This document shows, piece after piece, positions 27,640-62,460 of a stretch of 64,000 bases of DNA. The position numbers and the translations under genes are program-made. The notes under the pieces were generated by a model, which ran no database searches, was not told the DNA's origin, and was given only the letters and a program-made list of their open reading frames with translations. Source of the DNA: Chondrosia reniformis (lineage: Eukaryota; Porifera; Demospongiae; Chondrillida; Chondrillidae); NCBI GenBank assembly GCA_947172415.1, contig OX359202.1, positions 1,924,501 through 1,988,500 of the forward strand, written 5' to 3'. Each line of letters begins with the position of its first letter. The stretch's first letter is position 1.

Positions 27640-28164
27640 TTGATGTGGTCTTCCTTGTTGAGCAGACTGTTAATCAATGTTGTTTTTGGATGGATTAAGA
27701 TCATTGGAGAGGAGCAGAACCTGATACACAGGATATATGCTCAGATTAGCAATAGGATATTACTTGAGGAAAGAGGGTATGAAATTCTTGCAAACAGCAT
27801 TATTTTGTGGTATGCACTGTTAAGTTTCTCCCTCTCCTTTGTACAAATACATGTATATATAATTTATATAGTACTAGTTCCATCTACGTATGTTGACAAG
27901 TTGACGTGTATAATTACACAATTAAAAGGTTTTCCTCTGGAGTGGGAGTGAAGGTGTAGAGTTGTTATGTACATGACCATGAACACATTTACTGACTGGC
28001 TCTACATTTTAGTAATAATTTATAACGGTAATGCACTCTATTGACAAGTACTTTTATGAACTGCATTGTGTTTTAAGGGTTCAAAATGGCCTCAATTCTA
28101 AGGTTGTATGAACTAGCTGAATCAGATGTTTCTTATACAACCTATATACAGTACAAGTTACAAT

Positions 28165-28380
28165 ATACTAAGGTAAATAATATTAATAAATAAATAATAT
28201 GGCTCCAAGAAAGCACCTAGCAACAGAATGGGCATAGTATCATAAAGTTTAGGGTATAAAATGCATTTTAAATTAAAGGATTTTTTATTTAGGTCTCCGT
28301 TTGGTAGAAAAACTCCTTTCTTGGAGCCATATGAATTATTTATATTATATTATTTATATCATATTAGATTTCCTTAGTAT
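28165..28380. repeat. Palindromic MITE-like element (unit A; also 33117-33310, partly 38403-38580)
   Basis: ACTAAGGTAAATAATATTAA and AATATGGCTCCAAGAAAG on the left mirror CTTTCTTGGAGCCATAT and TTATATCATATTAGATTTCC on the right. It is present in units A and B and, with its left end missing, in unit C, so it was there before the units were duplicated. No coding capacity. Confidence 0.75.
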
Positions 28381-28520
28381 ATTGTATCTTGCACTGTATA
28401 TATGTAGATTACCTTAGTATATTGTATCTTGCACTGTATATATGTAGATTACCTTAGTATATTGTATCTTGCACTGTATATATGTAGATTACCTTAGTAT
28501 ATTGTAACTTTTTGCATATA
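28367..28520 (+). repeat. 40-bp tandem repeat, nearly 4 copies
   Basis: The unit ATTACCTTAGTATATTGTAT plus CTTGCACTGTATATATGTAG repeats with almost no change. Units B and C have only about 1.5 copies at the matching place (near 33300 and 38580), so the expansion happened in unit A after duplication. Confidence 0.9.
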
Positions 28521-29824
28521 TGTAGAGGTTTATCGTCTATATAGCTGAACATTGCACATGCTATATATTTCAATATGTAATAGCATCAATAAGTTAAGTT
28601 AAGTCTTGTGAAAGTTGAAATATAGTTTCTGAATCAGTGTATTAGCCTTCAGTGAATATCCTTTGAGATTGGTTCTTTACTTAGGATTTCAATTGAGTAA
28701 AAGTTTATGTATAAAATATAAAATTGAATATTTTACTTTCAAAACTCTACAGTGTATAATATATGCCTAATTATGCTACATGAATAGACCATGGACGTTT
28801 GCGTATATATGATTTGAAGTGTATTGATTGACTATACACAATATATATAGTACTTTTTATAAGACTTTAGTCTTTAATCTAATGTATATAATTGTGGGTA
28901 TTGTGAAGTCTTAGGATTATAGAACTATTGACTAACTAAGCTAAGACTTAATAGATTGTGTATGAACTTGTAGAGTATTTAGACAGTTCTATCAATTCTG
29001 TGTGTCTTAATTTATTGGTTCTCATCTTTGTGATTTACGCAGTTATATAATAATTATTTAGCTTAATCATTTTATCCAAAGTTTTGTAGATTATACACCT
29101 ACTTTTAGCTAGTCACATTTTTTGTTAAGGTCATTCCTACAACTACACTTTCTATAAATATGAATTTTGTAACTTGGCAGTGAGGATGAGAGAGGTTAAA
29201 AGAGCTATATACACTTTGAATTTGTAGCAACATTGAAGCACTCTACTATTGCAACTCGACAGTTGTTCATGTGCAACCAAGTAGAATTCACAATATATAA
29301 CAAACACACTAAGCACATATATAGTAATATGTATTATTATATACTCAGGAATTTCCTATTGACCAGCAATTATAATTAGTTCATTTATAAACTAATTGTA
29401 AACATAAGCTGGTCTGTGAGTATAGTCAAACGGTTGAATTTATGATAGAGAAAACCACTTGATTTCTCAAAAACTGAATAAAGAATTGACATTTCAACAA
29501 TGGGAGCTTGTAGTTGGAGGTTGCTATTGTTGCTTGTACTATTTTTCCTGTTTCCATCAGTTATCTCCTCTAAAGGAACTGAAAACAGTTAGTATTCAAT
29601 CCTATAACAAGATTAATACATTGAATTGTAACGTTGTGTTTGCATATACGGTACATGCCAAAAGAAACGCCTCGATCGAGATTTTCAAGCGAGGCACTCG
29701 TAGAGGCGAGTGCAAATTAGAGATATTTTAGTTGAGATTTTGTCGAGTGGTGGCTCGAGGCACCCCTCAATTGGCAAACGAGGTAATGACGACTGCTATT
29801 TAAAGGGCTTGTAATCCCCTCTTC

Positions 29825-29850
29825 CTGATGAAGATCTCCGGGTCGAAAGG
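29825..29850 (+). ncRNA. Hammerhead-like core remnant
   Basis: CTGATGA (29825-29831), A, GATC-TCCG-GGTC as a weak stem II, then GAAAGG. The 3' pairing found at 17246-17314 is not seen, so this is probably a degenerate member of that repeat family. It lies in the segment that replaced the SRCR exon of unit A. Confidence 0.35.
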
Positions 29851-30249
29851 TTCCATTTGTTTTTAAATACAATTATTGCTGAGTCTCAATAAATTAAGAT
29901 ACTCAAGGAATCTTTAATACGCATCTTGCCAAAACTCGTGCCTAATTAGGAGCAAATACCAACTCTATACAACGATTGCATTCTACACTCTTGACTTGGA
30001 CTTTATTGCTATCGATTCACCAATGGCCAAGTCTACTGTCCTGTCCTTGTAGTCTCCGTTTCTTCTTGAGTGACTCGTAGAACTCCTTTTTGTTGTATTT
30101 TCATGAATTTTTACTTGTAGTGAAATTGAAACTCTACATCATTTCCATTTATTGTTGATTATCTTACTCTTTTTCGAGTTGTGTAATAACGTGACACATT
30201 TTTCCTTTTTGGTATATTGTTTTCAGATATAATGTTAACATATGGCTTC

Positions 30250-30370
30250 CTGTTCGTAACCTTATATATATATATATCTGTCAAAAAATAGCGGATGCTC
30301 GGGTAGCTTTCGTTTTCTAGCCTAAAATTAGCTTTCTCTTCCTTAGCGTCAAACATTGAACGAACGAAAA
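30250..30370 (-). repeat. Fragment of the pogo-like MITE seen at 52189-52694
   Basis: On the minus strand TAGAAAACGAAAGCTACCCG and GAGCATCCGC match the interior of the full element (near 52545-52575). No terminal repeats here. It belongs to the sequence that replaced the SRCR exon in unit A. Confidence 0.7.
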
Positions 30371-32057
30371 GGATTAAAACCTCCTTTACTTATACTTATA
30401 TCATGTAAATCACCTCTAGGTATGGTATTAATAGAAGCTAAATACTTGTTATAGAATAAGTCTGAAGGGAACATCTGTTATATTCAGTTCTGCTATGCAT
30501 AATGGAATACATAAATCTATATATAGAAAAACTCATATCATAGATGATGTAACAGATGTCATGTACTTTTCTCTACAGTGTGGATCGATGTTGAAGTTAC
30601 AAATAGCACTTCTGCAATTATACGATGGACATTTCCTCAACATCAATCTTTCATTGGGTATAAGGTAGTAGTAAGTCAGGCTGAAGGTCTACATTCACAT
30701 TCAGATGGAGTAGTAATTGTTTCAAATATCACATTAAATAGTACCACAGGTGTTAATGAAATAAATGGATTAAGTGAGTTTGAGTCCTGATTTACAGGTT
30801 TATGTATAATATTTGGTGTCTGCTGCCTAATTCTTACACAATGCACAATGTACAATCATCTGTATCCTGTAGAACCTTTGTCAGAATATGTAGCAGAAAT
30901 AATTGGAATCCAAAATGAATCTAATGACACTAGTATCGTGGACAGGTTTGGTTTTGTAGCTATACAGGGAGGAGGTGAGGTTGCTATAGAACATGGAGTG
31001 CATGCATTAGCTGTATAGTGATTAAGTTGTAAGAGAAGCTGTTTTAAATTTACTTTTTAATGAGTAATGATTGACTGTCAAAATTTATCCCTGCATGCCA
31101 TCACTTAGTGTATAGGTATGATTATGACGTGGCAGCACTTGATATATTAGTCAAGTCTGTAGATATTGTCTCGTGTATCCTGTATAGAAGTGTTTTGCCT
31201 TGTTGAAATGTAGAATGACTGTTTATTGGTTTATAACTAATACAGTGGAACGTACCCTTTGAAAAATGGCCAATATTCATTCAACGGACAGTATGTTACT
31301 GTATGTGTAAATGATGAATTGATTTTCCTATAGATTTAGTATAATTGCACCCTCTCAATAGCAAACCCTCTCTACTCTCCAGCAGACAGCTAGAGTTAGT
31401 GTTCCCACATACTTCTTAACTTCAATTTAAGACTAGTAGGGACAATAATTCTTAAATGGTATAATTAGTACCATTCAGCCACATCATAGATTCTCCCAAA
31501 AGCTATATTTTAGGTATTATTTCCTTTATGGAATGCTTTAATTGTACACTGATCAGGAGAGAAGAGAACTGGTTAAATTGGGTAACGAAAAACCAACTGA
31601 ATGTGACTAAATTTCTGTTACTTGACAAATTAAAATCTTGTTTGAGATAGAAACTACTGGCATAAACTGACACTCAAAACTTTTAAGAGGCAACGCCGTA
31701 GCCAAGTTACCAAAATTTAAACTACTCTAAATATAAATACTGAGAATATATAAAGTTCTATTGTGTTTCCAGTTTCATTTCGTTTCCCAATTCTGGGTTT
31801 TATAACTTGCCCATCTGCATTGAATGATATTTAAAGATTATTTAAATGAGGAAATATTTCAACCTTGGCAAGTGTTAATTTGAAATATTATATACTACTT
31901 ACATGCACATGTAAAACACTGCAGTAATATATTTGAATAGACAAAATGTAGTACAGAACAGTTAGCAAAGGTTTAATTTGAAGAAATTGAATTAACCTGT
32001 CGTGCGGAACTCACATTGCTACCAGTTTGGTTGTTGTGATAACCTCTTTTTTGAATA

Positions 32058-32434
32058 CAGTGAACCCTCGCCAATCGGAATAGCATTGTACCAAAGGCTA
32101 CAGGAATGTGTTCAGATTAGTGAATCTGTTCGGGTTAGTAAAAGTTTCACAAAATGTGCTATAGATGACGTTAGTACAGTAGTCCTCATTATAAACGCTC
32201 AATTTTCGTCGCAGAGCACAGTATAGGATTTCTTTCCGATCAAGTCGAGCAGCTTCAGTTTAGGATCAACAGATAGGGTCTTATGCACTCACTTGGCCTT
32301 GGTTATAGACGCCATTACACATACTTAGCCTGAAATCGTGTGCGTAAGACCAAAATTTGTCATTCGGATTTGCGAGGGTTCGGATTAACGCGATTCACAT
32401 TAGCGAGGGTCGGGATTGGCGTGGCCGGGTCCTC
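32058..32434. mobile_element. Tc1/mariner-pogo-type MITE, unit A copy
   Basis: Left end CAGTGAACCCTCGCCAATCG preceded by TA. The right end corresponds to GAGGTCCACTG of the unit C copy but is eroded. No transposase reading frame. The same element is in the same place in units B and C, so it inserted before the array expanded. Confidence 0.75.
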
Positions 32435-34348
32435 TATTTGTGTCAAACAAGTCAAATATGGTGGAACAATTTGCCAAACCAATTTTACCCAATTGAAAGT
32501 CACAATGTATGCAGTTGTATGGAAACGAATGATTTGGGAAACATATACGTAGTGTGCCATAGCTCCCTCTGTGAATCTCATGATAAAACGTAAGATTGAT
32601 GTAGTCTTTGTTGAGCAGACTGTTAATCAATGTTGTTTTTGGATGAATTAAGATCATTGGAGAGGAGCAGAACCTGATACACAGGATATATGCTCAGATT
32701 AGCAATAGCATATTACTTGAGGAAAGAGGGTATGAAATTCTTGAGAACAGAATTATTTTGTGGTATGCACTGTTAAGTTTCTCCCTCTCCTTTGTACAAA
32801 TACATGTATATATAATTCATATAGTGCTAGTTCCATCTACGTATGTTGACAAGTTGACGTGTATAATTACACAATTTAAAGGTTTTCCTCTGAAGTGGGA
32901 GTGAAGGTGTAGAGTTGTTATGTACATGACCACACATTTACTGACTGGCTCTACATTTTAGTAATAATTTATAAGGGTAATGCACTCTATTGACAAGTGC
33001 TTTAATGAACTGCATTGTGTTTTAAGGGTTCAAAATGGCCTCACAATTCTAAGGTTGTATGAACTAGCTGAATCAGATGTTTCTTATATAACCTATATAC
33101 AGTCCAAGTTACAATATACTAAGGTAAATAATATTAATAAATAAATAATATGGCTCCAGGAAAGCACCTAGCAACAGAATGGGCATAGTATCATAAAATT
33201 TAGGGTATAAAACGCATTTTAAATTAAAGGATTTTTATTTAGGTCTCCGTTTGGTAGAAAAACTCCTTTCTTGGAGCCATATGATATTATTTATATCATA
33301 TTAAATTACCTTAATATATTGTATCTTGTACTGTATATATGTAGATTACCTTAGTATATTGTAACTTTTTGCATATATGTAGAGGTTTATCGTCTATATA
33401 GCTGAACATTACACATGCTAATATGTAATAGCATCAATAAGTTAAGTTAACTCTTGTGAAAGTTGAAATATAGTTTCTGAATAAGTGTATTATAGCCCTC
33501 AGTGAATATCCTTTGAGATTGGTTCTTTACTTAGGATTTAAATTGAGCACTTATGTGTAAAATTTAAATCTTTTACTCTGAAAACTCTACAGTGTATAAT
33601 ATATGCCTTCCTAATTATGCTACATATATAGACCATGGACCTTTGAGTATATATGATTTGAAGTGCATTGATTGACTATACACAATATATAAAGTACTTT
33701 TTATAAGACTTTAGTCTTTAATCTAATGTATATAATTGTGGGTATTGTGAAGTCTTAGGACTATAGAACTATTGACTAACTAAGCTAAGGCTTAATAGAT
33801 TATGTATGAACTTATAGAGTATTTAGACAGTTCTATCAATTCTGTGTGTCTTAATTTATTGGTTCTCATCTTTGTGATTTACGTAGTTGTATAATAATTA
33901 TTTAGCTTAATCATTTTATCCAAAGTTTTGTAGGTTATACACCTACTTTTAGCTAGTCACATTTTTTGTTAAGGTCATCCTACAACTACACTTTCTATAA
34001 ATATGAAGTTTGTAACTTGGCAGTGAGGATGAGAGAGGGTTAAAAGAGCTATATACACTTTGAAATTGCAGCAACATTGAAGCACTCTATACTATTGCAA
34101 CTCGACAGTTGTTCATGTGCAACCGAGTAGAATTCACAATATGTATGATTGTACATCACAAACACAATAAACACATAGTAATATGCATTATTACTCAGGA
34201 ATTTCCTATTGACCAGCAATTATAATTAATTCATTTATAAACTGATTGTAAACATAAGCTGGTCAGTCAGTATAGTCAAACGGTTAAATTTATGATAGAG
34301 ACAACCACTTGATTTCTCAAAATTGAAAAAAGATTTGACATTTCAGCA

Positions 34349-36449
34349 ATGGGAGCTTGTAGTTGGAGGTTGCAATTGTTGCTTGCACTATTTTTCCTGT
34401 TTCCATCAGTTATCTCCTCTAAAGGAACTGAAAACAGTTAGTATTCAGTCCTATAACAAGATTAATACATTGAATTGTAATGTTGTGTTTGCATATACGG
34501 TACACGCCAAAAGAAATGCCCCGATCGAAATTTTCAAGTGAGGCACTCGTAGAGGCAAGTGCAAATTAGAGGTATTTTAGTCGAGATTTTGTCGAATGGT
34601 GGCTCGAGACACCCCTCGATTGGCAAACTAGGTAATGACAAGTGCTAATGAGACATAGAGTTATCAAAATAGTTTAACACTATATATCGATTGATTCTTT
34701 GGCCAAATCAGCTTTGATTTCACCGTATTTGAGACTGTAGAGAAATGTTTCGTTTACTAGAGTAAGTGTATTTTGACAATATTGACATCCTTCTTCCTTA
34801 GTTCACGCACACTTTTACTAAATTCTGATAGGATTGCCACCCAACGATTTTAACATGTGATTCCATAGCACTCGGTTGGTGATTTCTTAGTCGATATTCT
34901 AGCGAGGCTTTAGTGAAGATTTGGTGAGATCTTGCCGAGTGAAAGCCTCACCAATCACTATCAAGGCGGCATTTCTTTTGAAGCATACCGTATGTGTATA
35001 TATATCACTTGTTTCTTTCAATATATAGCAATTGTTAATGCTGACATTGTTTGGTATATAAGTTTATTGGAAATTGAAGTAATTTTGTAAGAATATATAT
35101 AATCTGATTGTCTTTATACTAATATTTATCAATTATATGCATACATGAGCTCTACTAGTTATTCCATTAACACTTTATTGTTAAAAGTGAAATGAAACAT
35201 AGTTGCAAATAATGCCCCTAGCTCTAAGCATGCACTGTTGTGATTGTCTCACTTCAATTTTAGCAGTGTTCTATAGTTTGAATATGAATCATTATGTAAT
35301 AAATGTGATACTTTTTCATGTTCCAGTTACAGTGCGACTAGTTGATGGTACTAATGCCTGGGAAGGTAGAGTCGAAGTGTTGTACAACAGCAAATGGGGA
35401 ACCATTTGTGGTGGTTTCTGGCAATATTGGGATATTAAAGAAGCCAATGTTGCATGTAGAATGCTTGGTTATCCAGCAGCTAGATATACTTACAGTGATA
35501 CTAGTGAACATGATTATGGAAGAGGAAGTGGTCCTATATGGTTATCATCACTTGTGTGTACTGGAAATGAAGTGTCTCTCTCGGAGTGCTCACATAGCGG
35601 ATGGGAAAACATTCCATCTTATTGTGATCATAGTTGGGATGTTGGTGTGGTATGTAAAGGTAGGTAATACTTGAATGAACTGATATTGAACTTATTCAAT
35701 GTTTCATGTAATTTCCTAATTTCACCCATTCATGGTTACCATGACAACTATTATTGAAACCTAATCTGTGCTATAGAAATATAAGTACTTAACACTCTTA
35801 TGGCTATATTGGTGCCTAACCACCAGTTAGTTAAGATGCCTCCTCCCACAGACATTAACTGGATCTAAGAATATCAGCTTGTCTGATGAATCATGTAAAT
35901 CACCTCTAGGTATAGGATTAATAGAAACTAATTACTTGTTTTAGAAGAAGTTTGAAGGGAGCATCTGTTATATTCAGTTCTGCTATGCATAATGGAATAC
36001 ATAAATCTATAGAAGAATTCATATCACAGATGACATAACAGATGTCATGTACTTTTCTATACAGTGTGGGATGTTGAAGTTACAAATAGCACTTCTGCTA
36101 TCATAAGATGGACATTTCCTCAACATCGATCTTTCATTGGGTATCAGCTAGTAGTAAGTCAGGCTAAAGGTCTAAATTCACATTCAGATGTAGCAGTATT
36201 TGTTTCATTGAATAGTACCACAGGTGTTAATGTAATCAATGGATTAAGTGAGTTTGAGTCATGATTTACAGGTTAATGTATATTTGGTGTCTGCTGCCTA
36301 ATACTTTTTTACACAATTCACAATGTACAATCATCTGTATCCTGTAGAACCTTTGTCAGAATATGTAGTGGAAATGATTGGAATCCAAAATGAATCTAAT
36401 GACACTAATGTCGTGGACAGGTTTCGTTTTGTAGCTGTACAGGGAGGAG
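34349..36449 (+). CDS. Unit B ectodomain cassette: signal peptide, SRCR, FN3
   Basis: Signal exon 34349-34436 (MGACSWRLQLLLALFFLFP), SRCR exon 35327-35659, FN3 exons 36065-36247 and 36348-36449, all phase 1 at both junctions and open. The SRCR domain has six cysteines (group A spacing: TICGG, ANVACRMLG, SLVCTG, LSECSH, SYCDHS, VVCKG) and the usual EGRVEV and WGTIC motifs. No stop codon or membrane segment follows in unit B, so the cassette needs downstream exons: either unit C exons or the shared SRCR-FN3-TM-kinase part. It could be an alternative 5' end of the kinase gene, or a truncated duplicate that survives by chance. Open frames with preserved cysteines favour use. Confidence 0.65.
34495..34993. 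repeat. About 500-bp MITE with TACGGTA termini (units B; also C 39762-40260; left half in A)
   Basis: Left end ATACGGTACACGCCAAAAGA and right end TCTTTTGAAGCATACCGTAT are inverted repeats. A complete copy is present in B and C; A keeps only the left part (29645-29790). It has no open frame. In C it ends about 30 bp before the SRCR acceptor because roughly 330 bp present in B are deleted. Confidence 0.75.
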
Positions 36450-37604
36450 GTGAGGTTGCTATGGAACATGGAGTGCATGCATTAGCTGTATAGTGATTAA
36501 GTTATATAATGATATGGAAAGTCCACCTAAAAATAATAATAATAATGCAGCAACCTAGCCACACAGAAACTTTCCGAGTGATTAAGTTGTGAGAGAAGCT
36601 GTTTTTAAATTTTAATGAGTAATCATTGACTGTCAAAATTTATCCCTGCAAGCCATCACTTAGTATATAGCCATGGTTATGACATGGCAGCACTTGATAA
36701 AATGGTCAAGTCTGTAGATATTGTTTCTTTTATCCTGTATAGAAGTGTTTTGCCTTGTTGAAATGTAGTATGACTGTTTATTGGTTAATAACTAATAGAG
36801 TGGAATGGACTCTTTGAAAAATGGCCAATATTCATTCAACGGACAGTATGTTACTGTATGTGTAAATCATGGATTGATTTTCCTATAGATTTAGTATAAT
36901 TGCACCCTCTCAATAGCAAACCCTCTCTACTCTCCAGCAGACAGCTAGAGTTAGTGTTCCCACATACTTCTTAACTTGCATTTATGGACAATAATTCTTA
37001 AATGGTATAACTAGTACTATTCAGCCACATCATAGAATCTCCAAAAAGCTATATTTTAGGTATTATTTCCTTTATGGAATGCTTTAATTGTACACTGATC
37101 AGGAGAGAAGAGAACTGGTTAAATTGGGTAACGAAAAACCAACTGAATGTGACTAAATTTCTGTTACTTGACAAATTAAAATCTTGTTTGAGATAGAAAC
37201 TACTGGCATAAACTGACACTCAAAACTTTTAAGAGGCAACGCCGTAGCCAAGTTACCAAAATTTAAACTACTCTAAATATAAATACTGAGAATATATAAA
37301 GTTCTATTGTGTTTCCAGTTTCATTTCGTTTCCCAATTCTGGGTTTTATAACTTGCCCATCTGCATTGAATGATATTTAAAGATTATTTGAATGAGGAAA
37401 TATTTCAACCTTGGCAAGTGTTAATTCGAAATGTTATATACTACTTACATGCACATGTAAAACACTGCAGTAATATATTTGAATAGACAAAATGTAGTAC
37501 AGAACAGTTAGCAAAGGTTTAGTTTGAAGAAATTGAATTAACCTGTCGTGCTGAACTCACATTGCTACCAGTTCGGTTGATGTGATAACCTGTTTTTTTG
37601 AATA

Positions 37605-37945
37605 CAGTGAACCGGAATGTGTTCAGATTAGTGAATCTGTTCGGGTTAGTAAAAGTTTCACAAAATGTGCTATAGATGACGTTAGTACAGTAGTCTTCAT
37701 TATAAACGCTCAATTTTCGTCGCAGAGCACAGTATAGGATTTCTTTCCGATCAGGTCGAGCAGCTTCAGTTTAGGATCAACAGATAGGGTCTTATGCACT
37801 CACTTGGCCTTGGTTATAGACGCCATTACACATATTTAGCCTGAAATCGTGTGCTTAAGACCAAAATTTGTCATTCGGATTTGCGAAGGTTCGGATTAAC
37901 GCGATTCACATTAGCGAGGGTCGGGATTGGCGTGGCCGGGTCCTC
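37605..37945. mobile_element. Pogo-type MITE, unit B copy with internal deletion
   Basis: Same element as at 32058 and 42471; after CAGTGAAC it jumps to CGGAATGTGTTCAG, so about 30 bp near the left end are missing. Non-coding. Confidence 0.72.
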
Positions 37946-48600: not shown

Positions 48601-51600
48601 TGCATACTGCTTTGATAGCATTTCACCAATATCAACTCGATTGGTGAGGGCAGCAGCAGCTGATCGGTGGAAATCGCAGGTTTCATGCTTGGTGAAGTTT
48701 CTCGTAGCATCTTTCCAGTTCGTGAAGCCATTGACTAGAAAAGCTGGCTCAGCTGTACCGGAAAGTTTCACTTTACCCATCTTCACCGCCTTGCAGCAGG
48801 TGAAACAGAAAGCGCCATCGAGTCCGACATCGTAATGGATCCAAGTAAAACGATTAAACCACGATGCTTGAAAAAAAAACGACTTACTGGAGTAGTTTTT
48901 CCGAAGGAGCGGGAAGGGAACGATAGATGGCGTGGCTGGAAAGGCTTGTCAGGCACATCGCGCACTTCAGCAACGGAAACGGCCATTTTAATGTCCATAC
49001 GTGTCCATACCAAATGGCTGTCTTCAATCGCGACGTGTGTCGATTCGTGGATCAACTCGATTTCCTAAGGGAATAGGCACCTATATATTGGCTGCGTACG
49101 TAAGTACACTACTAATGACTTATGGTAGAATAGTTACTACACGTTTCAATTAAAATATAGTCTAGTAATTCTATTCTGCCTTGTGGCAACAGTAGCTAGC
49201 TATTTTAAAATTTTAAGTTGAAGTGTAAAAAGTGGTGCGGCCATGGCCGTAGCAGCCGCACCGGAGGCGCCGGCCCTGAATAGACAGTCCACACAACCCC
49301 ACCTCCCTTTTCTCGTTGAGCCATAGGTTAAGGATCATTAGTGTAGGTGTGAATGAGTAGTTGTGATACCAAGTATGCCGTGATGGCTTTGTACATCGTG
49401 TTGAGGCATGCAATAGGTTGATAGTTTGGTCTCATCAATGCTGTCAGGACCTTCAGAGGAGGTTCTACCCACCCTCTTTCTGGTTTCCTTTAGCCATTCT
49501 GTTACCCATGGGTCACCATGGTTAACCTTACCAACGGTACCAACAACCTTTCTCCAAAAATCTCTTACTACCTCAATAGAGAGAGCTTTATTGGAGAATG
49601 GAGCCTTACCATTCACCCGGAACTTCCTTTTGGTATTCCAAAGCTGGCTTTGTTCCTGCCATTTCCTGCGTTCAGCTGATCTTCGCTCCTGTAGGATCCA
49701 GACCATAAGTTTCCCCATTGTCTTTTCCCGAGCTCTGATCAGCATATTCGGGTTTAATCTAAACTTTCTTCGGAGTACTTTCTGGCATTTGGTCATTGGA
49801 TTATTACTCTGTTGGCACACTATTTCCACATCCAACCAGGCAAACAGTCTTGTAAATCTTAGGCCCTTGGCCTTCCTGTCACTTATGTGACCTTCCTGCC
49901 TCTTACTACCCATCTGATTGTCCTATTTCCTTCCCTGGTTGCATAGCTGTGATTCGTTGGTTGTTTTTCCCCTCACAGCCATAGCGACGGAGTAGACCAG
50001 GCAGTTCAGGTGCCAGGCTGACCTAAGGCCTTCCTGCCACTCTTTCTCCACCCAATCATGGGCCTCCTCGAGCAGTGCCGTATCAACATGATTGAACCGC
50101 ACCACCCCACAAAGTTTTCTATCAGAAAAATCTCCAGGTTTCTTTCGGAGACAGGCATCCTTTGCTTTGCCCATGAAGAGATCATTGCCACTTGTCCTGG
50201 GGCTGGGGTTGATATCATGTGTGTAAGATTCAGCAGGATCAGTATACTTGGTTCAGCCCTTTCAGACTGAACTCGGTGCAGCTCCTCCCGTTCCTGTGCT
50301 TCCCACACATTCTTCCTCAGTCCCAGTTAGGGTGGCTATGCCACAAGAGTCAGGTTCCACAAGGTTTAATCTTGAGAGACCCTTAAATCTTCGGATTCCA
50401 CCAACCTCACAGTTAGCGCTACCTTTGTGGTCACATGGTCTGGCTTTGCAGCGTTCCAAGCCTGGTACAGCCGCTCCACGTATCCCTTTTTCATTGGCTT
50501 ACTTTGTCGGTAAAGCTCCATGAGGATATTATCCCTCTGAAGGTTCCAGATTACCCCTTGTATATACCTTTCTCCTTCTTGAGGTGCCTTGTGGTGCATC
50601 ATTAACCAAATCTAAATGTCTTTGGCTATCTGTTACTTGCAGTACACCATCTCCTGCCAAGTTCCTTTTGGCTTGGCAGGCAAGGGTTCGACCGGTCAGA
50701 GGCAAATTGGGAAATTTGATCAGCCATTCCTGCTCTAAATGCTTCAGATAGCCTCTTCTTTTGGGTTCAGATCGCTCAAAGCAATCAATTAGTGCCCTAG
50801 CCATTTCCTCGGTCCAGAAGTCTGGTTGTCCTGACATGAGGACCGAAGAAGAACTGTTACATTCAGGTACATCTACCTGTGAGGCACCAGTGGAATTGCC
50901 TATTCTGGTTAACTCAGAGTTTTCTTCACCACTGGTGCACCTAGGCCACAGCCTGTCTTGAAAATTAAAAAAGTTGTAACTGTAACTGTAAACTGTAAAC
51001 AACTTTAAAAGTAAAATAATAAAATATAGGTGTTCAGGGTGGATTTTGCATCTGAAAATTCATGAACAATAACCTTAAATTTGGTAAATTATTATCTAAT
51101 AATTTACCAAATTTAACAACAAACCAGTATGTCTAATAATTTCCACTATATTGCATAAATAACCTCCCCTTTTTCCACTTTGTTCAGTTTAAAATTGATA
51201 CACAAAGCCTTCTTTGGCCCTACACATACCTACATGATTATAAGTTTACAAATGTTTGTTGTAATAGAAGTTTGTCTGGTATACACCGAAGGAATTGAAT
51301 GTACAGAAAGTTATTTTTTGACAATTGTTCATTATAACCCAAAATTCGTTATGAGGAAGTTTATTATTAGTGGAGTTGACTGTATATCACTTGTTTCTTT
51401 CAAAAGCAATCAGTAATACCGACACTCTTTAGTATATATGTAAGTTGAAGTGATTTTGTAAGAATATAATCTAATACCAATATTTGTCAATTATGCATGC
51501 ATGAGCTCTTTTACTTATTTTATTATTATTTTATTGTTAAAAGTGAAGTGAATCATTGCCAATTAAAGTGTGATTTAGATGCAAAATTGTAATGTATTGC

Positions 51601-54600
51601 CCCTAGCTCTAAGCATGCATTGTTGTGATTGTCTCACTTCAATTTTAGCAGTGTTCTATAATTTGAATATAAATCATTATGTAATAAATGTGATTCCTTT
51701 TCATGTTCCAGTTACAGTGCGACTAGTTGATGGTACTAATTCCTGGGAAGGCTTAGTGGAAGTTTATTACAACAGCACATGGGGAACCATTTGTGGTTAC
51801 TGGGAATGGGATATTAGTGAAGCCAATGTTGCATGTAGAATGCTTGGTTATCCAGCAGCTAGACATGCTTACCAGCATACTAGTGAACATGGTTATGGAA
51901 GAGGAAGTGGTCCTATATGGTTATCATCACCTGTGTGTAATGGAAATGAAGTGTCTCTCTCAGAGTGCTCACATAGAGGATGGGGAAACATTCCACGTTG
52001 TAATCATAGTAGGGATGTTGGTGTGGAATGTAAAGGTAGGTATTACTTGTATGAAGTGATATTCAACTTATTCAAAGTTATGTTTATATTTAATTTCCTA
52101 ATTTTACCCATTCATGGTTACCATTATAACTAAGACTTTGCATAATACATTATTAAAGCAGTTCATTCTAATTTGCTAAATATACATACAGTGGAACCTC
52201 GCTTAACAACCACCTCAGTATTAAGACCACCTCAAAATTGCAACACATTTTTTTGGTCCCGAGTAATTCTTGTATCTCGCGCTGTACTTTAGGTGTTCAG
52301 AAAAGCGACCACCTCGGAATTCACTTTTACGACCACTATTTTTTCGGACCAATATATAAAAATAACCAGCAAATAACCTCGGTATAACGACCAGGTGCGA
52401 AAACAAAGTTCGAGTTCCGGTCGTTGCCAATGCCATATCTCATAGAAACCGTTTGTGCAAGCTTTACCTTAGTAAAAGTGCTTTCTAAATCCCTTTTGCT
52501 GGTTCAATGCTCGACGTTAAGGAAGAAAAAGCTTATTTTTAAGGTAGAAAACGAAAGCCAGCCGAGCATCCGCCATTTTATTGACAGATATTTCTACGTG
52601 TACATGTACGTAAAAATTTCAGAATTAGGACCACCTCAAAATTAACACCAAAAAATGTGGTCCCAAAGGTGGTCGCATTTGTGAGGTTCCACTGTACTTA
52701 TACTCAGCATGGTTATATTGGTGCCTAAAAGTTAAGATGGCTCCTCCACAGGACATTAACTGGATCTAGGACTATCAGCTTGTCTGATGAATCTAAATCA
52801 CCTCTAGGTATAGGATTAATAGAAACTAATTTCTTGTTACAGAAGAAGTCTGAAGGGAATATTGTGGTGTGGCAGTTGTAGCTCAGTGACAGAACACTGG
52901 TGATCTAAGCCAACTGTCCCGAGTTCAATTCCCATGCCAGGCATATATTTTCTGTTTTGCCTCTTAAATAATGTTTGCAATTACGTACTTTGGTTTGATT
53001 CTAACTCTCATTTCTGATGGAGTATTTATTTTTTACTAAGTTCCTTTTAATTTTATTGAAATTTATAAATACCTTTTTTTGTAACTTCACATTAATATGA
53101 AAAACATGTTTATGTATGTGTCTATTATCCTTTGTTGTGGCAATGCAGATCCGTGGCAGAACAGTGGTGGTACAAACCAGCTGTTCTGTGTTCATTTACC
53201 AGGAACTGCTCTTTTGTATATGTTTTTACATTATGATACTTGAGAAAAATGGTACTTGTGGTTTTATTTTAACTATTATTAATGCAGTTGATTTAATCCT
53301 TTATGCCCTTATTAACGGAGGTGGTAGAACGTTAAAGCTTAAAAATGGTACCACTGCTCATGAAGGTCGAGTTGAGGTGTTATACCATCAGATTTGGGGT
53401 ACTGTGTGCGAGGACCTTTGGGATCTACAGGATGCTGATGTTGTATGTAAGATGTTGGGATATCCAGGAGCACTCAATGCTACAACTGGTGCTTACTTTG
53501 GGGAAGGAAAAGGTCCTGTTGTAATGTCTGATGTAAGATGTGCTGGACATGAAGGTGATATAGATGAGTGTGAGTATAGTATCTGGAAAGGTGACACAAC
53601 TTGTAAGAATGGATCAGCTGGTGTGATATGCAGAGGTACATGCATGCATTGTTAAGAGAGTGAAATGATGATGTACAACTAAAGTGCACTTTGCTTAATC
53701 CACATGCACTGTTTTTACCTCTATATACCACCTATTCCGCCATAATGTCCCGGCTGAATCTGCCATAATTTAGGACATGCATGACTTGAACATATTCACA
53801 TATCATCATTGAATGCATCACTTAGTTTAAGACTAAAATCTGTTATTACATACATATATATATATATAAGAATTTGATTGATTTATTCAGTTGTTCCGAA
53901 AAGTTTCTATATAGTGTAACAAATTTAACTACCATAATGTGTTATTCTGTTCTATATACTACTAAAGTTTAGGTATTATGGTATAGCATGTTTTTTTAAT
54001 TGTGTATATGGCCCTGGTGACGTGATGTGTATGCAGTATATTATAATTCACCTGACTTTTCCGTTTTATGAAATTCACTGTTGCCAGTCAATTTTTTCAA
54101 TCTTTTTTAGTGTTTTTCTTTTCATACTGTAACTTGCACTGTTTATATTACGTATATTCAAACCCCATGTACTCTTCTTAATATTCATGTAGTTCCAGTG
54201 CTACCCCAAGATCTAACTGTAACAGCTGATGACAGATCCATATCACTGTCATGGATATCCACTGATCATGAGTCAGATATATTTTGTGACCGCTATGAAT
54301 TCCTTTTAGAAAATATGGAATCATCATATAATGTTACTCATGAAGTGCCAAGCAATAAGTCTCCCTTTGTGTTCAATAATTTAAGTAAGTGAGCATGTCA
54401 TTTAACAAAGGTTAAACTAGTACACCATTTCCCTGCCTGTTATGCCTAGTCTATAATAAATTAAAAACCGGCCTACATAACTACTGGAACTAAAACTGGA
54501 GAGAGCTTTGGATGAGGATACAGGAGTCTTCTCTTTCTTCTTTTGCTCCACCAGACCAGACAGCTGTTTCTGATAATTCCACACTTCATCAGTGACCCTG

Positions 54601-57600
54601 GGAATCTTTATCTTTATCTTGATCTTTTGTGAATCCTTGGCTCATGCATTCCAAATATGTAACATGACATGAATATATTATAGTAATATAATGATATACG
54701 TATAGGACTTTAGTTCTACGTATATAGAGTTATATGACTAGCTATTCTCTCATGGAAATAGCACATATAGCACATTATAATGTCTTTAATACATACATCT
54801 AAATATCACTGTGTGACAGTACATATATATAATTTATACAGACAACAACCTTATACACAAGCTTAAACTTAAGGTCAACCAACGAGATGACTGTCTCTTG
54901 CTGCTATGTGTACGTATATGAGTTTGAGTGGTAAATGTCACACCTAACAGTGCAATCAGCCACCAATTGTTAAATTTGTTGGCTGATTGGACTTTTTTTA
55001 TTTGAAAGTTTTAGTATTACGTATATACACCATACAGTAGGCTATATATAGTTGAAGGGTAATTGTCATACAATACCTCCTAAGGGTGTCACGCGTATTA
55101 GAAGTGGTACACTTAAAACTATGTGATTTAAAAAACAAGGGCGAGTACATTTTTAGAAAAGTTAAAGTGTCTGCTATTTTATGGCAGGTTTGCACATGTA
55201 ACAAACTGTTAATTAAACAATATTAGCCTAGTCTAATCCAAAATCCAAATCCAAAGTCATGTATAGAACTTTTGTAAACAGCACCTGTTGGATATGGTAA
55301 CACCACTCTCCTGTTCCCAAGGAGAACATTTCCCTCTTATAAATTCGCCTTATTTCACAGTTATATAGTAAAACCTGTGCAGTGATGAGCTACAGTTTTA
55401 AAGGCTGTCAAGTCAGTCAGTAAGTGGTAACTCAGTGGTCAATGACTGCATGACTATAGCTACGCAAATCAAACTGATCACATAGCAACTAAAGACAAAA
55501 TGCATTATACTCAACAAGCACTCTTATTTAATCTGGACAAATCATCTTTGTTTTGGTCATCTAATTGTGTCATTGGTCATCACTGTCACTATCAGTATAA
55601 TATGGTTGATGGTACAGTTCTATTCCAAGGTCCTCCTAAGTTTTACTTCTTTGAGACTTAGCATCCTTTTTGTTTGGTTAAAGTCAATAATGTTGTCTAA
55701 ATTTTTGCCTGTTGTTCATTGTACAAGGAAGACAAACAATCCAAGTCTACTTCTTTGTCCTCTTCAATATATACCCAACATTTCATAAACTGGTTCCTTA
55801 TATTATGTTACAACATTTTGACAGAAGCCGAGTTACAGCCCATGTAAAATTGCCACAACTGTATTAGGAATTTACCCCTCTATAGTGCCATCATAATATA
55901 TAAATTATACCTTAATTATGTTCACAAGTACCACTTTGCTAAATTGTGAGGTATTTTCTAGTAACTGTTAAAGTTTCATTTTTTGTGACAGTGGCCCTTT
56001 AATGTAGTGCATAAATTTCATATCACTGTGACAATTTCACTGACTGTTGCAGTTGTGTTACACATCTTATGGTGTAATACAATTGTTTGTTTTGTGTGCC
56101 TCGTTACTTATTCAATTTATTGTTCTCTTTTAAGTACCATCAACACAGTATAAAGTGACTGTAAAAACAACCTATAACACTCGTTTTGACAAGAATGAAA
56201 GCTTTTACAAAAGCACAGGTATTTTATACATGTAACAAACCACATACGTATGTACAAAGTTGTATATCTACACGTACGTATGTACATGTACACCTATACT
56301 TAATGTATTAAATTATGTGCAGTTATGAGTTATATTAATATGTATAGTAATACCCTTCTGTGTTTGATATGTATATATGTATGTATAAGTTTCACAAGTA
56401 TACTTCAATAAATAAGTAGATTGTTATATATAGTGTCTATGATATGTCTACATAAGTGGCTTTATTAGCACTCTCATATACAGTCTAACCTTTACTGCAA
56501 TGGTGTATTAATGTTAGAGAACTAGAATAATGAAACTTAAGACTTAACCACACACATCACGTTTATGTTTAGGTTCATCATCATATACTTTAGTTGATTT
56601 GCTTAAAGTGATGCATACAGTTAATTAGCTTATATTTCAGTATGCCACTTCTGTATGGTTAGCCTTATCACATGATCACTGTCTTAAGCTTGTTACACTA
56701 TACCTTTCCAAATGTACTAGTCACTGTTATTATATCTGCTATCCTTACTTCTAACTTCATTTTAAAAGTTTTTATTTAACTTAAATATGTAGAGCCATCT
56801 TTACCAAGTGATGTTGATATTAAGAGTAATCTTACATTTGCATTTGTAACATGGAATTGGAAAGAACCTTCTAACAATAGAAATATCACATATTGGTTCA
56901 TTGTAAAGGAAGGGAATGTTATTAAATGGAATGACACTGTGGAAAGTGATCAATCTTCAGTTGTTATCCCAAATTTAAGTGAGTGAATTAATTTCCAGCT
57001 TCTTATATTTTAATTCTGTCACATTGATTAAATGTTTATTGGACATAATAAACCCCTGCTGATTGTGTTTAAAGTAGAACAATGCTTATTTGTTCTAAAA
57101 AGATAACACATCAGAAAGTGGAACCAAAAGTACATCAAGGCATTTTGATGTATTAATTTTGAAAGGTCTATTACATAGCAGTCTAGACAGCACTTTTAAT
57201 TATCTTTTGTGTATCTAATGCAGCTCCATCTACAATGTATAGTTTAACTATACAGACATGTGCTGGTAACGCGACAAAGCATTTTATATCTAAGAATTTC
57301 ACCACAGAAAGAATTTTAGAAGGTATTTCATTCTCCTTTTCTGTCATATTGCATGAAAGCAAACTCATGTCTGAACATTTATATTTACGTCACCACCGAG
57401 TATAGAAGTAGGGATTATTTAAAAAACATGGCCTCCCTATTTAATGTGGCTTCGGTTGCATTTGACTATTTGCAGTCATTATATTTACAGGAACATACTT
57501 GTCAAAAGGTCAAAACACATTTCAATGTGCTCTACAACGTCCACAAAGTGGTTAAATGGCAATAAGCCTAATTCCTAAAATTCTTTTTTAATTGAGCTAG

Positions 57601-60600
57601 TGCAAGCATGTGAAGTTATGTAAGGTATACAAGTTCTAAAAAATCGGTATTAATTTGTCTGAAATAGGGAATATGCTACCTTATCACTTCTACACATTGT
57701 TAGCCTTACCACGTGAACACTAGCTGTCTTAAGCTATTTTATTACAATATCAGATGTAGTAATAACTGTTACGGGAAAAATCATCACTACTTCAAACTTT
57801 ATTTTTTAAGGTTTTTATTTAACTTTATACACTATGTAGAATAACTGATGTTTGCATAACCTTTGTGTTTTTCCATTGCAGCTAGTGTAGAAACCATTGA
57901 AAATTATCAGATTGGAGTATATGTTGTTATTGGAATACTGGTAGTAATGATATCCTGCATAGTTACTTGTGTAATAGTGTTTATAACAGTGAACCTGAAG
58001 AAAACAAAGAGGTATTACTGTATATATTTTATTATATCTACGTATACATCATGTATGTGTATATACCTAAGAACCTCATTTTGAGGATAAATTTAACATG
58101 TTTTAGCTATACTTGAAACACTTGCTAGTTTAAATTCATTTTTCGCAGGGCTACTACTGATTCTGACATGTGGCAATTTGGAAATAGAAAAGTAAGTATA
58201 TATGCATACACTCCCATATAAACTGATGCCATTGTATAAATAAACAAAGGTCTGTAAAATTACATGAGTTCATAGGCTTCTTAATGTACTTTTATCCACT
58301 ACCTCCTTTTCCAAGTATCTACATTGTGTCCAGGGAAGCATACACTCATTGATTTAGGGAATACTGTTTAGGTATCTATAGAGACACTGATATTAATGCC
58401 TTTAGACTCTATATGGAGGTTTTAGATAGTCAATTCCAACTAAAAAGACCAGTTAGCCTACTTTGAAATATACAGGTAAGTCACTGACTCTATAGGAGTG
58501 ACCCTAATTTGTTCCCTACTACGTAAGTGTTGCATGTAAATGTGAGTTATGAGGAGACTGCATGCTCAAGAGTAGGAAAGCCTAACCTTCAAATGTTTCA
58601 CAATATTCTGATGACTACCTCTTAATATACTCAGTGAAACATTTGAGTCATCCAGTAGTAACCCTATAAGGAATTTAACGCAGCAAGGCAAGACTATAGC
58701 TATGCATATTTGTGAATAAATAGTTCATTAATTAAGTATTGTAAAGGAATACAGCATTTCATATAGAACCAAATCATTAACAGTTACTTTTGAAGGTGGT
58801 AATGGTCATTAAAGAAGGTGATATCTTTAATCTTCTATATATTTCCAATAAAACAATTTAGCTGAACACAACTCCTCTGATTGAGCAAGATGGAGACTGG
58901 GAACTTGCTAAAGATGATGTGACCTTTTTGAGGTCTATTGGCAGAGGTAACTTTGGTGCAGTAGAACTAGCTCTTATCCCACGGGGCATTTCAAATGCTA
59001 GAGCACAGAACTTCTTTAGGAGGGTTAAGAAGAACAATCCAACTTTGAATCCCAGCTTAGTAGTTGTGAAGAAGCTTAAAGGTACATATACAGATGTATA
59101 CGTATGTGTATTAAACTTAAATTTGTTAAATAGAGCCTTCTAACAAATTGAATCCATACACTTGAATTCATTTTGGTACTATGTAAATATGAAAAGACAG
59201 TTCCTAAATGCAGTTAGTGAATAATTTCCCATCAATCTTTTTTCTAGAGTTTTTTGCTATCAATTAAATGACTCCTTTTAACTCATTTTTTCTCTATACA
59301 ATGTCATATAATACAGGCTTTTCATCATTTGAACAACAAATGGCTTTTGTGGAAGAGTTTAATATTATGAAGAAGGCTTGCAGTGGGGAGTGTCCCAACA
59401 TTGTGTACATTTTGGGATATATCAAAGAAGTCACAAGTACAGACCTTGCTATAGTATTGGAGTATGTTCCACTGGGAGACTTACGGAACATGTTGAGGAA
59501 ATGGAAGGAATTGGTAAGACTTGCTTTCACCTATTTTGTATGTACACATTAGTTCGTTATACTTTGTTTTGTAGAGCTTGCCAATAGGCTATGTTGAAAT
59601 AGATTCCCTTAAGAATGAGCAACCATCCCCTGAATATATACAATCTGAGGAGACTGCAAGTATCAGTGAACAATTAGACAGTTCAGATGGACCTGAAGCT
59701 AGTCCTGTGTACTGTGACAAGGACAAGAAAGCATTACATTATCCACCAGCATACATTAAGAATAAGGATTTGGTGTCCTTTTCCTACCAGATAGCATCTG
59801 GAATGGTCAGTCAGGATAGAGGCATTTTAATAGTTGGAATCATATCTTATATGTGTTTGATTTCTCATTATAGATGTACCTTGCAAGTCTTGGCATCATT
59901 CATCGTGACCTGGCATGTAGGAATATTCTTGTGGGCTTTCAAAAGCTTCTTAAAATATCTGATTTTGGTTTGTCAAGGGTAACTGAAGGGGAATACCTAT
60001 CCACCTCTAAAGTTGGAATGCCTGTCAGATGGTTAGCACCAGAGTGTCTTAAAGAGAAGAAGTATTCTGAGAAATCTGATGTGTGAGTATGTCGTATGAT
60101 ACAGGCTCATTGCCATATTCATATGTTGTTGGTGATCTTCTTGTACGGAACACTTCATTTGTTTAAGGATATAGTGCTCTACAGACATTTTGAACTAAAA
60201 TTGCGCTGATTATTTATATGCCACCTTGCATGGGTCTTATAGAGAATACATGTACCGAGTTTGAGCAAGTATCTATTTATTGCAAAGGAGATTTGATCTA
60301 TTGAGAATTACATTATACTCTATCAAAAATGTATGATGGACACATTCTCAATAAGGATTTGTTGCTATTTTCTGTGATATCTACTGATCACATTTAAATA
60401 TAATTAGAAGAATTTCAGTGAGGTGTACTATCGTATACATTAATTTGAACAACCACAAGGCATTAGCTGTAATATGTAAATAATTGAAGACACACTGTCT
60501 ATTCTCTTCTCAATTGTCCTTTAGTATAGATTTCACTGCATGTGTTCATGAATTATATACACTTTATTGTCTATATCTTCCAATAGATGGTCCTATGGCA

Positions 60601-61128
60601 TATGCTTGTGGGAGATATGCACTTTAGGTAAACTTAATTGCTCTATATATACACAATGCACTTATTTGATTTCTACACATGTATATAAATTAATTAATGG
60701 TCCATATATATTTGCATGTATCATACATATTATAGAGTGGGATTCTTTTAATTACCTTTAGGAAAGAGGCCGTATCCTGATATGAGTAACAGAGATGCAA
60801 TGGTTAAGGTCTTAGAAGGATACAGGATGGAAAAACCTAAAGGATGCAGTGATATTGCGTAAGTGTTCTCATTAGGTTATAAATCTGATGGCCTGACTGA
60901 TGCTGTAATTAGAACTTAAGAATGATCTTTTTATCTAGGTACAACACCATGTGTCAGTGCTGGGAACTAGATCCAGCAGTGAGGCAGACCTTTACAGAAA
61001 TCAAACAGTCCTTTGCAATGATACTAACAGAGCTGCATGGAAAAGACTACATGGATATGAATGCAGCTATTTTTAGTGACATCCAAAAAGTGACTAATCA
61101 AGTCAGCCACAGAAGAACAGCCAGCTAA
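39616..61128 (+). CDS. Receptor tyrosine kinase with SRCR and FN3 ectodomain (model using unit C signal exon)
   Basis: Exons: 39616-39703 (signal peptide), SRCR 40294-40620, FN3 41026-41217 and 41317-41418, SRCR 51712-52035, SRCR 53288-53635, FN3 54193-54384 and 56135-56218, FN3 56793-56978 and 57224-57322, TM 57882-58011, 58149-58191, then kinase 58862-59081, 59317-59513, 59575-59805, 59874-60082, 60587-60627, 60762-60858, 60939-61128. Sum 3300 nt, 1099 residues plus stop. The kinase has the glycine loop GRGNFGAVE, VVVKKLK lysine, EEFNIMKK glutamate, HRDLACRN, DFGLSR and WLAPECL, so it should be active and is of receptor type. Exon 59575-59805 is a 77-residue kinase insert with several tyrosines (YVEI, YIQS). 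The tail has YMDM, a PI3-kinase SH2-type site. Which signal exon is used is uncertain, since unit B would also fit. Confidence 0.82.
42471..42814. mobile_element. Pogo-type MITE, unit C copy with both ends
   Basis: 344 bp from CAGTGAACCCTCGCCAATCG to GACGGAGGTCCACTG, flanked by TA on both sides (42469-42470 and 42815-42816), as expected of Tc1/mariner superfamily elements. Internally it has GTTCGGATTAACGC-like repeats. Non-autonomous. Confidence 0.8.
43369..44476. mobile_element. Foldback element: perfect 175-bp inverted repeat plus about 730-bp body
   Basis: 43369-43543 and 43568-43742 are exact reverse complements around a 24-bp spacer. The body continues to CGGCCATCCCTACTT (ending 44454), which mirrors AAGTAGGGATGGC in the left arm (from 43398), so that sequence probably marks the terminal repeat. 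Comparison with unit C (GCCTATATATATAGTGCACG near 38325) shows the whole block was inserted in a TATA run of unit D. Relatives occur at 26423-26545, 56531-56783 and 57405-57831. No protein-like frame, so non-autonomous. Confidence 0.8.
44477..45429. other. Diverged unit D sequence, no gene recognised
   Basis: 44477-44540 is ordinary unit sequence (compare 38340-38400), then about 700 bp unlike the other units. Around 45240-45400 the unit sequence resumes (CTGATTGTTAACATGGGTTG; GATAGAGACAACC), as it does just before the signal exon in A-C, but the signal exon itself is not found where the LINE begins. A perfect 19-bp-arm hairpin lies at 45115-45153. Confidence 0.6.
45115..45153. repeat. Perfect hairpin, 19-bp arms, 1-base centre
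   Basis: ATAACAGGATTTAAGAAGC, then C, then GCTTCTTAAATCCTGTTAT. Exact complementarity; the loop is a single base, so it would extrude as a near-perfect cruciform. Function unknown. Confidence 0.9.
46648..49278 (-). mobile_element. hAT-superfamily DNA transposon, 2.6 kb, nested in the LINE
   Basis: Imperfect terminal inverted repeats: left CAGGCCCGGAGCAAGC, right (read inward) CAGGGCCGGCGCCTCCGG. Both sides are flanked by AATAG (46643-46647 and 49279-49283). Five bases are visible as target duplication; hAT elements normally make eight, so the rest may have diverged. Removing the element and one AATAG restores a continuous LINE frame across the site. A 31-bp palindrome, GAATTCATGCATAT / centre AAT / ATATGCATGAATTC, lies near the left end (46685-46715). 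Confidence 0.85.
46819..49055 (-). CDS. hAT transposase (ZMYM6/TTF-finger-like, DUF4371 + dimerisation domain)
   Basis: The main frame (48786-46819, 655 residues from its first Met) is uninterrupted. It also extends upstream of that Met through a TTF-type zinc finger region, QASWFNRFTWIHYDVG and GAFCFTCCKAV. The proper start is probably ATG 49055 in another frame (PFQPRHLSFPSRSFGK), so the two parts are separated by one frame change. This falls at a run of nine A (about 48871-48879, plus strand), where a one-base sequencing slip is likely. Catalytic landmarks: CIMIDETTDAS (first Asp), GQCYDGASSMSG (second Asp), NATSERSFSALRRVKTYLRS (Glu and C-terminal dimerisation motif). Transposes by cut-and-paste; the largely clean frame inside a decayed LINE shows a later arrival. 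Confidence 0.85.
52189..52694. mobile_element. Pogo-like MITE, 506 bp, complete ends
   Basis: CAGTGGAACCTCGCTTAACA at the left and TCGCATTTGTGAGGTTCCACTG at the right form terminal inverted repeats. TA dinucleotides flank both ends (52187-52188, 52695-52696). Inside are repeated GACCACCTC-type motifs on both strands. No transposase. It lies between two SRCR exons of the kinase gene, and a fragment of a relative is at 30250-30370. Confidence 0.88.
52868..52943 (+). repeat. tRNA-derived SINE-like copy (second copy 53136-53203)
   Basis: TAGCTCAGTGACAGAAC resembles a tRNA box A and GAGTTCAATTCCC a box B, correctly spaced. The stems do not pair well enough for a functional tRNA. A second, more diverged copy (GATCCGTGGCAGAACAGTGG ... 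TGTGTTCATTTACC) lies 265 bp downstream in the same orientation. Both are in a kinase-gene intron. Confidence 0.6.
54503..54640 (-). repeat. Dispersed repeat family 1, copy d
   Basis: On the minus strand GCCAAGGATTCACAAAAGAT leads into GGGTCACTGATGAAGTGTGG, TCAGAAACAGCTGTCTGG and the purine-rich tract. This copy has both CTGATGA (54592-54586) and GAAAC (54570-54566) of the hammerhead-like core. Intronic in the kinase gene. Confidence 0.75.
54641..56130. other. Long kinase-gene intron, unassigned
   Basis: AT-rich intron between the two halves of the first membrane-proximal FN3 domain. It contains an imperfect hairpin near 54951-54992 (CAATCAGCCA ... TGGCTGATTG). Short open frames, such as one near 55567-55788, show no domain features. 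Nothing else recognised. Confidence 0.55.
56531..56783 (-). repeat. Foldback element relative, left arm truncated
   Basis: GAAACTTAAGACTTAACC ... ATGCCACTTCTGTATGGTTA ... TTTTTATTTAACTT matches the central part and right arm of the 43369-43742 palindrome with many substitutions. It ends just before an FN3 exon acceptor (56791). Confidence 0.7.
57405..57831 (-). repeat. Foldback element relative with part of the body
   Basis: Read on the minus strand it has the arm (57831 to about 57665) followed by body sequence sharing GCCATTTAACCACTTTGTGG-like and CTACTTC-type stretches with 44260-44454 of the reference copy. It is shorter and diverged, showing that arm and body travel as one element. Confidence 0.65.
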
Positions 61129-62362: not shown

Positions 62363-62460
62363 CATTATTAAGGATGCTATAGAATATGGAAAACTGACTC
62401 TATACTTTATTTAAAACCACTAACTTGTTTCATTCAATTAACTGATTATATACTTACAGG

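Follow-up and report, generated by a model that had tools for sequence, protein, structure and literature searches.

Introduction

In the clustered protocadherins and in UGT1, variable 5' exons stand before a shared 3' end, and to our knowledge cassette arrays with such a shared end are known mainly from bilaterian neural adhesion molecules and detoxifying enzymes. In the account given in PMC4835542, the chelicerate sDscam alpha and beta genes carry tandem 5' cassettes of two or four exons upstream of shared FN3, transmembrane (TM) and cytoplasmic exons. The exons are frame-neutral, and 5' segmental duplication that included promoters has been proposed as the origin of the cassettes (PMC4835542). 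These multi-exon cassettes have internal acceptors; mostly one cassette is used per transcript, with a fraction of mixed isoforms, and the protocadherins are described as having a single large first exon as their variable part (PMC4835542). Here we describe an array in the demosponge Chondrosia reniformis in which the 5' end of a receptor tyrosine kinase (RTK) gene is present in three tandem copies upstream of one shared kinase end. The array lies in a window of 64,000 nucleotides (assembly GCA_947172415.1, contig OX359202.1, here C14, positions 1924501-1988500). Coordinates are window positions unless a contig is named, and the genome searched comprised 117,379,552 bases in 15 contigs. The locus in the window is called W, and two related loci are called X and Y.

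Expanded SRCR families and tandem SRCR duplication in a sponge have been reported for Amphimedon (PMC10855680), and the main text of that report contains neither 'tyrosine kinase' nor 'alternative splicing'. We found no description of tandem 5' cassettes on an RTK in the titles and abstract openings listed by searches of open-licence PMC papers.

Tandem units precede a single receptor end

Self-BLAST of the window identified three tandem copies of the RTK 5' end, unit A (27638-32597), unit B (32594-38108) and unit C (38103-43369), all on the forward strand like every exon of the array, with aligned pieces that are 83.6-94.2% identical. Each unit consists of 1.5-1.9 kb of 5' flank, a signal-peptide exon and an FN3 module of two exons (a and b), and an SRCR exon is present in B and C only. 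In unit A the signal exon (29500-29587, sequence MGACSWRLLLLLVLFFLFPSVISSKGTEN) ends in phase 1 and is followed by FN3 exons at 30579-30773 and 30873-30974; unit A is without an SRCR exon because its alignment with B is interrupted from 29798 to 30400 by unrelated sequence. Unit B has its signal exon at 34349-34436, a hypervariable SRCR exon at 35327-35659 and FN3 exons at 36065-36247 and 36348-36449. The corresponding exons of unit C are at 39616-39703, 40294-40620 (also hypervariable), 41026-41217 and 41317-41418. The FN3 modules of the units score weakly, with the unit A model reaching 25.2 bits against the Pfam fn3 cut-off of 25. A fourth region, D (51383-52858), is partly similar to B and C and holds an SRCR exon alone (51712-52035); neither a signal exon nor an FN3 exon was found beside it in the window comparison.

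Downstream of A-D lies a single SRCR-FN3-FN3-TM-kinase end. It is composed of a constant SRCR exon (53288-53635), two FN3 modules (FN3-1, 54193-54384 and 56135-56218; FN3-2, 56793-56978 and 57224-57322), a TM exon (57882-58011), a juxtamembrane (JM) exon (58149-58191) and seven tyrosine kinase exons, K1-K7, between 58862 and 61128 (58862-59081, 59317-59513, 59575-59805, 59874-60082, 60587-60627, 60762-60858, and 60939 to the stop at 61128). The exon models have GT/AG sites and phase 1 at every junction from the signal exon as far as the end of FN3-2, all modelled exons are open, and translation continues through the TM and kinase exons. The model that joins unit C, D and the constant part contains three SRCR stretches above cut-off (PF00530, E 4.7e-80), two fn3 stretches above threshold, though three FN3 modules are present, and a near-complete kinase domain (PK_Tyr_Ser-Thr, E 9.4e-75, profile positions 2-257 of 258). 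HRDLACRN and DFG, which we take to be kinase motifs, both occur in the translation. The extracellular part, TM helix and tyrosine kinase domain of an RTK are therefore combined in one open model.

Peptides of the TM, JM and kinase exons matched the window at 57884-61129 only, apart from one weak match at 2786-2866 (E 0.35), and none matched inside the array. The original prediction, made from the letters of this DNA, had placed signal and FN3 exons in A-C, SRCR exons in B, C and D, phase 1 at all junctions, and no TM or kinase exon in any unit. Each of these points is borne out, and its exon boundaries (signal ends at 34436 and 39703, FN3 ends at 36449 and 41418, the end of D at 52035 and the constant SRCR start at 53288) were reproduced. 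The anatomy of the array is real and beyond chance, because the units recur at locus Y and in the diverged locus X.

The same prediction had compared the arrangement with the protocadherin and UGT1 clusters, and here it fares less well: their variable part is one first exon without an internal acceptor, whereas the sponge cassettes are made of three to four exons with internal AG acceptors. Chelicerate sDscam is the closer precedent. Like it, units A-C are tandem, multi-exon, leader-bearing and frame-neutral cassettes before shared TM exons, and D is an incomplete one. The differences are that sDscam has Ig cassettes on a non-kinase protein and the sponge has SRCR-FN3 cassettes, two to three per locus, on an RTK; and that promoter and splice evidence exists for sDscam, the sponge array being described here from its DNA sequence. 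No Ig family was matched by Pfam in the C+D+constant and unit A models, which sets the gene apart from the Ig-bearing Dscam family.

No close relative was found among the best 120 of 466 protein-database matches, a mixture of SRCR proteins and kinases with a best identity of 52% over 13% of the query, or among the best 120 of 303 in a second listing, which were SRCR proteins throughout. Within the best 120 of 466, proteins from Asterias (P0003), Oscarella (P0074) and Corticium (P0080) share SRCR and/or FN3 domains together with a tyrosine kinase domain, at 32-33% identity across roughly half of the query; P0003 and P0074, the kinases that carry SRCR, stand at 32%. In the sponge itself, matches L077 and L060 (C14:4414001-4426793) belong to a more distantly related RTK, which has one or more SRCR exons and kinase stretches that are 43-71% identical. 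SRCR-RTKs are thus a wider family in the C. reniformis genome.

Related loci and duplication history

Two further loci of the same RTK family, X and Y, are both on C14. Locus Y (1,995,001-2,027,671) has two complete units with 5' flank and signal exon (Y1 and Y2), a D-like SRCR exon and its own single RTK end; its D region keeps a 41-base fragment of a signal exon, which was left out of the exon counts. Locus X (1,628,501-1,654,940) has one signal exon, followed by a linear SRCR-FN3-SRCR-FN3-SRCR series and the same constant part. Over the three loci, open copies make up 6/6 signal exons, 9/9 unit or D SRCR exons and 7/7 FN3 modules, and the length differences between exon copies are multiples of three.

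Among the 34 matches listed in the genome for the signal exon with its 5' flank, only five sites, WA, WB, WC, Y1 and Y2, are near full length (92-100%). The match in X is partial (77%), and the remaining 28 are fragments on C14 or short stretches in other places, mostly dispersed repeat. The flank piece at 33746-34141 and its counterparts in the other units are 71-87% matches to a dispersed repeat present on several other chromosomes. Because full copies of flank and signal exon sit in W and Y and a partial one in X, we conclude from these alignments that a flank-signal-module piece was duplicated in tandem to give the units of W and Y, and that X grew by internal exon duplication.

Loci W and Y appear in turn to be products of a tandem duplication: window positions 22652-26943 are a 94.6% match to C14 from 1994608 onward, and there is a match on the downstream sides as well. 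They may instead be two haplotypes that were wrongly joined in the assembly. However, there is no N in the window, in 1988501-1995000 or in the Y stretch, the two loci differ in unit number, and homologous flanks on both sides at an offset of about 47.5 kb fit tandem duplication.

Positive selection in the unit SRCR exons

In WB, WC and Y2, the three units with the most similar introns, the SRCR exons are 9-10% apart and the introns 0.3-1.1%, with 30/327 exon against 3/592 intron differences for WB-WC, 31/327 against 10/890 for WB-Y2 and 33/327 against 2/592 for WC-Y2 (Fisher p <1e-10 in each case). The contrast is weaker in the three pairs that involve Y1 (exon 6.7-8.0%, intron 2.7-3.9%, p 0.002-0.013), and it is reversed between the two SRCR modules X1 and X2, whose exons are nearly identical with an intron divergence of 1.8%. 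The WB-WC exons differ by 23 nonsynonymous and three synonymous changes. Synonymous divergence (dS) in WB-WC, WB-Y2 and WC-Y2 is 0.045-0.123 and exceeds that of the introns, so the SRCR exons look older than their flanks, as would be expected if introns had been homogenised, or exons exchanged, around retained variants.

Codon models were fitted with custom code, on trees supplied by IQ-TREE, to the six W/Y copies and to all nine copies from W, X and Y. M2a was preferred over M1a with a likelihood ratio test statistic (LRT) of 27.6 for six copies and 36.8 for nine, and the selected class had a nonsynonymous to synonymous rate ratio (dN/dS, omega) of about 7.7 at 15% of sites. On a star tree the LRT was 39.6, and it stayed at 24.8-37.5 on star trees when any one copy was dropped, while the maximum in null simulations was 4.4 (n=20), or 7.4 with recombination (n=20). 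The four cassette copies without D gave an LRT of 18.7 (p 9e-5) with sites 30, 32 and 105, and the three W copies gave 11.1 (p 0.004). Elsewhere, omega was 0.92 in the FN3 modules of the units, 0.64 in the constant SRCR and 0.63 in the constant FN3s, none of them different from 1, and the TM-kinase end is conserved (omega 0.30, p 4e-5). These results speak for expression and diversification of the unit SRCR exons, either now or in the recent past.

To place the selected sites, the copies were aligned with an SRCR of mink DMBT1, whose motif allowed numbering as SALSA SRCR8. Residues reported to coordinate cations in SALSA include D1020, S1021 (via its backbone), N1081 and E1086 (PMC7043408). 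In the six-copy set five sites had a posterior above 0.9; four of these align with D1020, S1021, N1081 and E1086, and the fifth (56) sits in a loop insertion. Eight sites exceeded 0.9 in the nine-copy set, and among the additional ones 75 falls at V1060, and neither 76 nor 90 has a named residue opposite it. Six columns show at least four residues among the six W/Y copies, and these include 4/10 named positions (p 5e-4), one of which is site 30, equated with D1020 by hand. The cation-site residues of SALSA (D1019, D1020, D1058, D1059, N1081 and E1086) are not kept in the units. At these six positions the nine unit and D copies carry G/D, G/D/Y/V/F, S, S/F/T, Y/R/S/D and W/K/R/Y/N, and the three constant SRCRs carry E, D, S, D, T and G. 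With the acidic residues mostly gone from the units, binding by the variable SRCR probably does not rely on the canonical cation mechanism.

How the array may be used

We propose that the 5' end of an RTK gene, with its upstream flank and its signal, SRCR and FN3 exons, was duplicated in tandem, which would give several potential starts before one TM-kinase end. Most likely, transcription could then begin at each intact unit and continue into the shared SRCR-FN3-FN3-TM-kinase exons. Because the exons are phase 1, one unit alone, or one unit plus downstream modules, would yield a receptor in frame, in parallel with chelicerate sDscam. The unit SRCR would be the variable recognition part, with the canonical cation-dependent face, now mostly stripped of acidic residues, as its fast-changing patch, joined to a conserved kinase end. 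We infer promoter activity in each unit, the joining of its exons to the shared end and a recognition role, whether microbial or self/non-self, from the sequence. That alternative 5' starts feed one RTK end has, in our judgement, about an even chance of being correct. A public RNA-seq run (ERR10177766) is reported from the sequenced C. reniformis specimen (PMC12181767). The earlier proposal of cassettes sharing a 3' end stands as far as each unit has its own signal exon, a duplicated flank, phase-1 junctions and no TM or kinase match; a strict choice of one cassette does not follow, because the cassettes include internal exons that carry acceptors themselves, so that an upstream start could include downstream modules, and X is linear. 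Phase-1 symmetry permits cassette choice, nested or linear inclusion and secreted mini-genes alike.

Several observations weigh against alternative starts. Locus X reaches the same constant part from one signal exon through a linear series of modules. Part of the 5' flank is dispersed repeat, and the unit flanks evolve like intron: X differs from the W/Y units by 12.6-12.9% upstream and by 9.0-13.5% in introns, so that no promoter conservation was seen in the unit flanks in this comparison. The W/Y copies have diverged by just 1-4% upstream, and their intact downstream signal exons are weak evidence for this reason. Unit A has lost its SRCR exon and D is without signal and FN3 exons. The signal-exon donor and the unit SRCR acceptor score low on a splice-site matrix, itself a weak one built from 36 sites in three closely related genes. 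The average omega of the SRCR exons is not significantly above 1 (1.76, p 0.066 for six copies; 1.27, p 0.31 for nine; 1.16, p 0.7 for four). Fast change also extends beyond the units, because between W and Y the constant SRCR has five nonsynonymous and no synonymous changes and the constant FN3s have nine and two. At site 30 the residues of the other copies were matched to D1020 and that of unit B lies in an insertion; without this site the overlap falls to 3/10 named positions (p 0.01). Finally, compared with X and Y, W lacks two bases in its last kinase exon, past the kinase domain, and this deletion leads to an early stop (61090-61128) and cuts off a C-terminal tail whose frame is kept in X and Y. 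The tail exon (62460-63400), with about 24 copies of a 36-base, 12-residue repeat (DAPATLTCASDP), is open in W and out of the kinase frame, and the Y frame runs on into its 12-residue-repeat tail exon. Kinase signalling from W may be altered by the deletion, and if W is decaying, Y with its two cassettes would be the better test case.

The same exons could instead form one linear receptor, transcribed from a single start (A or another), with downstream signal exons skipped as first exons and all SRCR and FN3 modules joined; from the A start this would be a protein of about 1,400 residues. The downstream SRCR and FN3 exons do carry acceptors, the joined W and Y models are open, and, because X is linear, a join from the FN3b donor to an SRCR acceptor is usable there if its second module is expressed. 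However, the duplication in W and Y took in the flank and signal exon as well as the modules, and an open signal exon with ATG survives in all five copies, a point weakened by their low divergence, and we consider a linear receptor possible though unlikely. Each unit might also end after FN3b and yield a soluble signal-SRCR-FN3 protein, perhaps a decoy. Read-through of the FN3b donor adds a short extension that ends at a stop codon (GEVAMEHGVHALAV, then the stop), identical in WB, WC, Y1 and Y2 and with one residue changed in WA, and the variant signal ATTAAA lies 95-791 bases downstream of FN3b in 6/7 copies. Yet X1 has one residue more in this extension and X2 a different sequence, AATAAA is absent within 1.3 kb 3' of FN3b in 7/7 copies, and the FN3b donor is necessarily used in X if the second module is expressed; secreted mini-genes therefore seem improbable.

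The tandem 5' copies could be non-functional by-products of unequal crossing-over, with one copy in use. The losses in unit A and D, the truncated tail of W, the transposon open reading frames between C and D and the many pairwise dN/dS values near 1 would all suit such leftovers. They are set against modelled exons that are all open, length differences in multiples of three and positive selection at few sites, mostly on the binding face. Because of these open exons and the strong site-specific selection in the SRCR, the units are unlikely to be junk, and little probability attaches to this explanation. A single upstream promoter is also conceivable, from which a non-coding first exon would be spliced to alternative, internal signal exons through an AG before the ATG. 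In its favour, TTTCAGCA immediately 5' of the ATG is kept in 5/6 copies, including X. It is lost in unit A, the acceptor score is modest in WB and WC (top 10.4% of AGs on the 36-site matrix) and no upstream exon was identified, which leaves this arrangement very improbable. The candidate acceptor itself, TTTCAG, lies 2 bases 5' of the signal ATG (34340-34349 and 39607-39616) in 5/6 copies and would be in frame with upstream phase-1 exons.

Genomic neighbourhood

Upstream of the array, forward-strand open reading frames at 16407-24629 encode EGF-like, HRM and GPS domains and probably represent an adhesion-GPCR-like gene, the HRM-GPS part of which lies inside the W-Y duplication. Between units C and D, the reverse strand carries a hAT transposase open reading frame (DUF4371 and hAT dimerisation) and a reverse transcriptase fragment (46252-48948). 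SRCR exons are abundant throughout the genome, with 893 first-look PF00530 candidates, at least 150 of them over the cut-off, and large SRCR arrays are found on C3, C5, C7, C8 and C10.

Conclusions

The array suggests that one signalling tail might take several recognition heads. We put forward, tentatively and as less than probable, that choice among tandem 5' cassettes with their own starts gives a non-bilaterian animal a small, locus-encoded RTK repertoire with a kinase as its direct output, in which SRCR faces diversify under selection as introns are homogenised, possibly for self/non-self or symbiont discrimination. If true, a cassette array on a sponge kinase receptor, with selection acting on its ligand face, would tie the generation of a repertoire directly to signalling in an animal that lacks adaptive immunity, and would single out one locus by name as a candidate for allorecognition or symbiont sensing in sponges.

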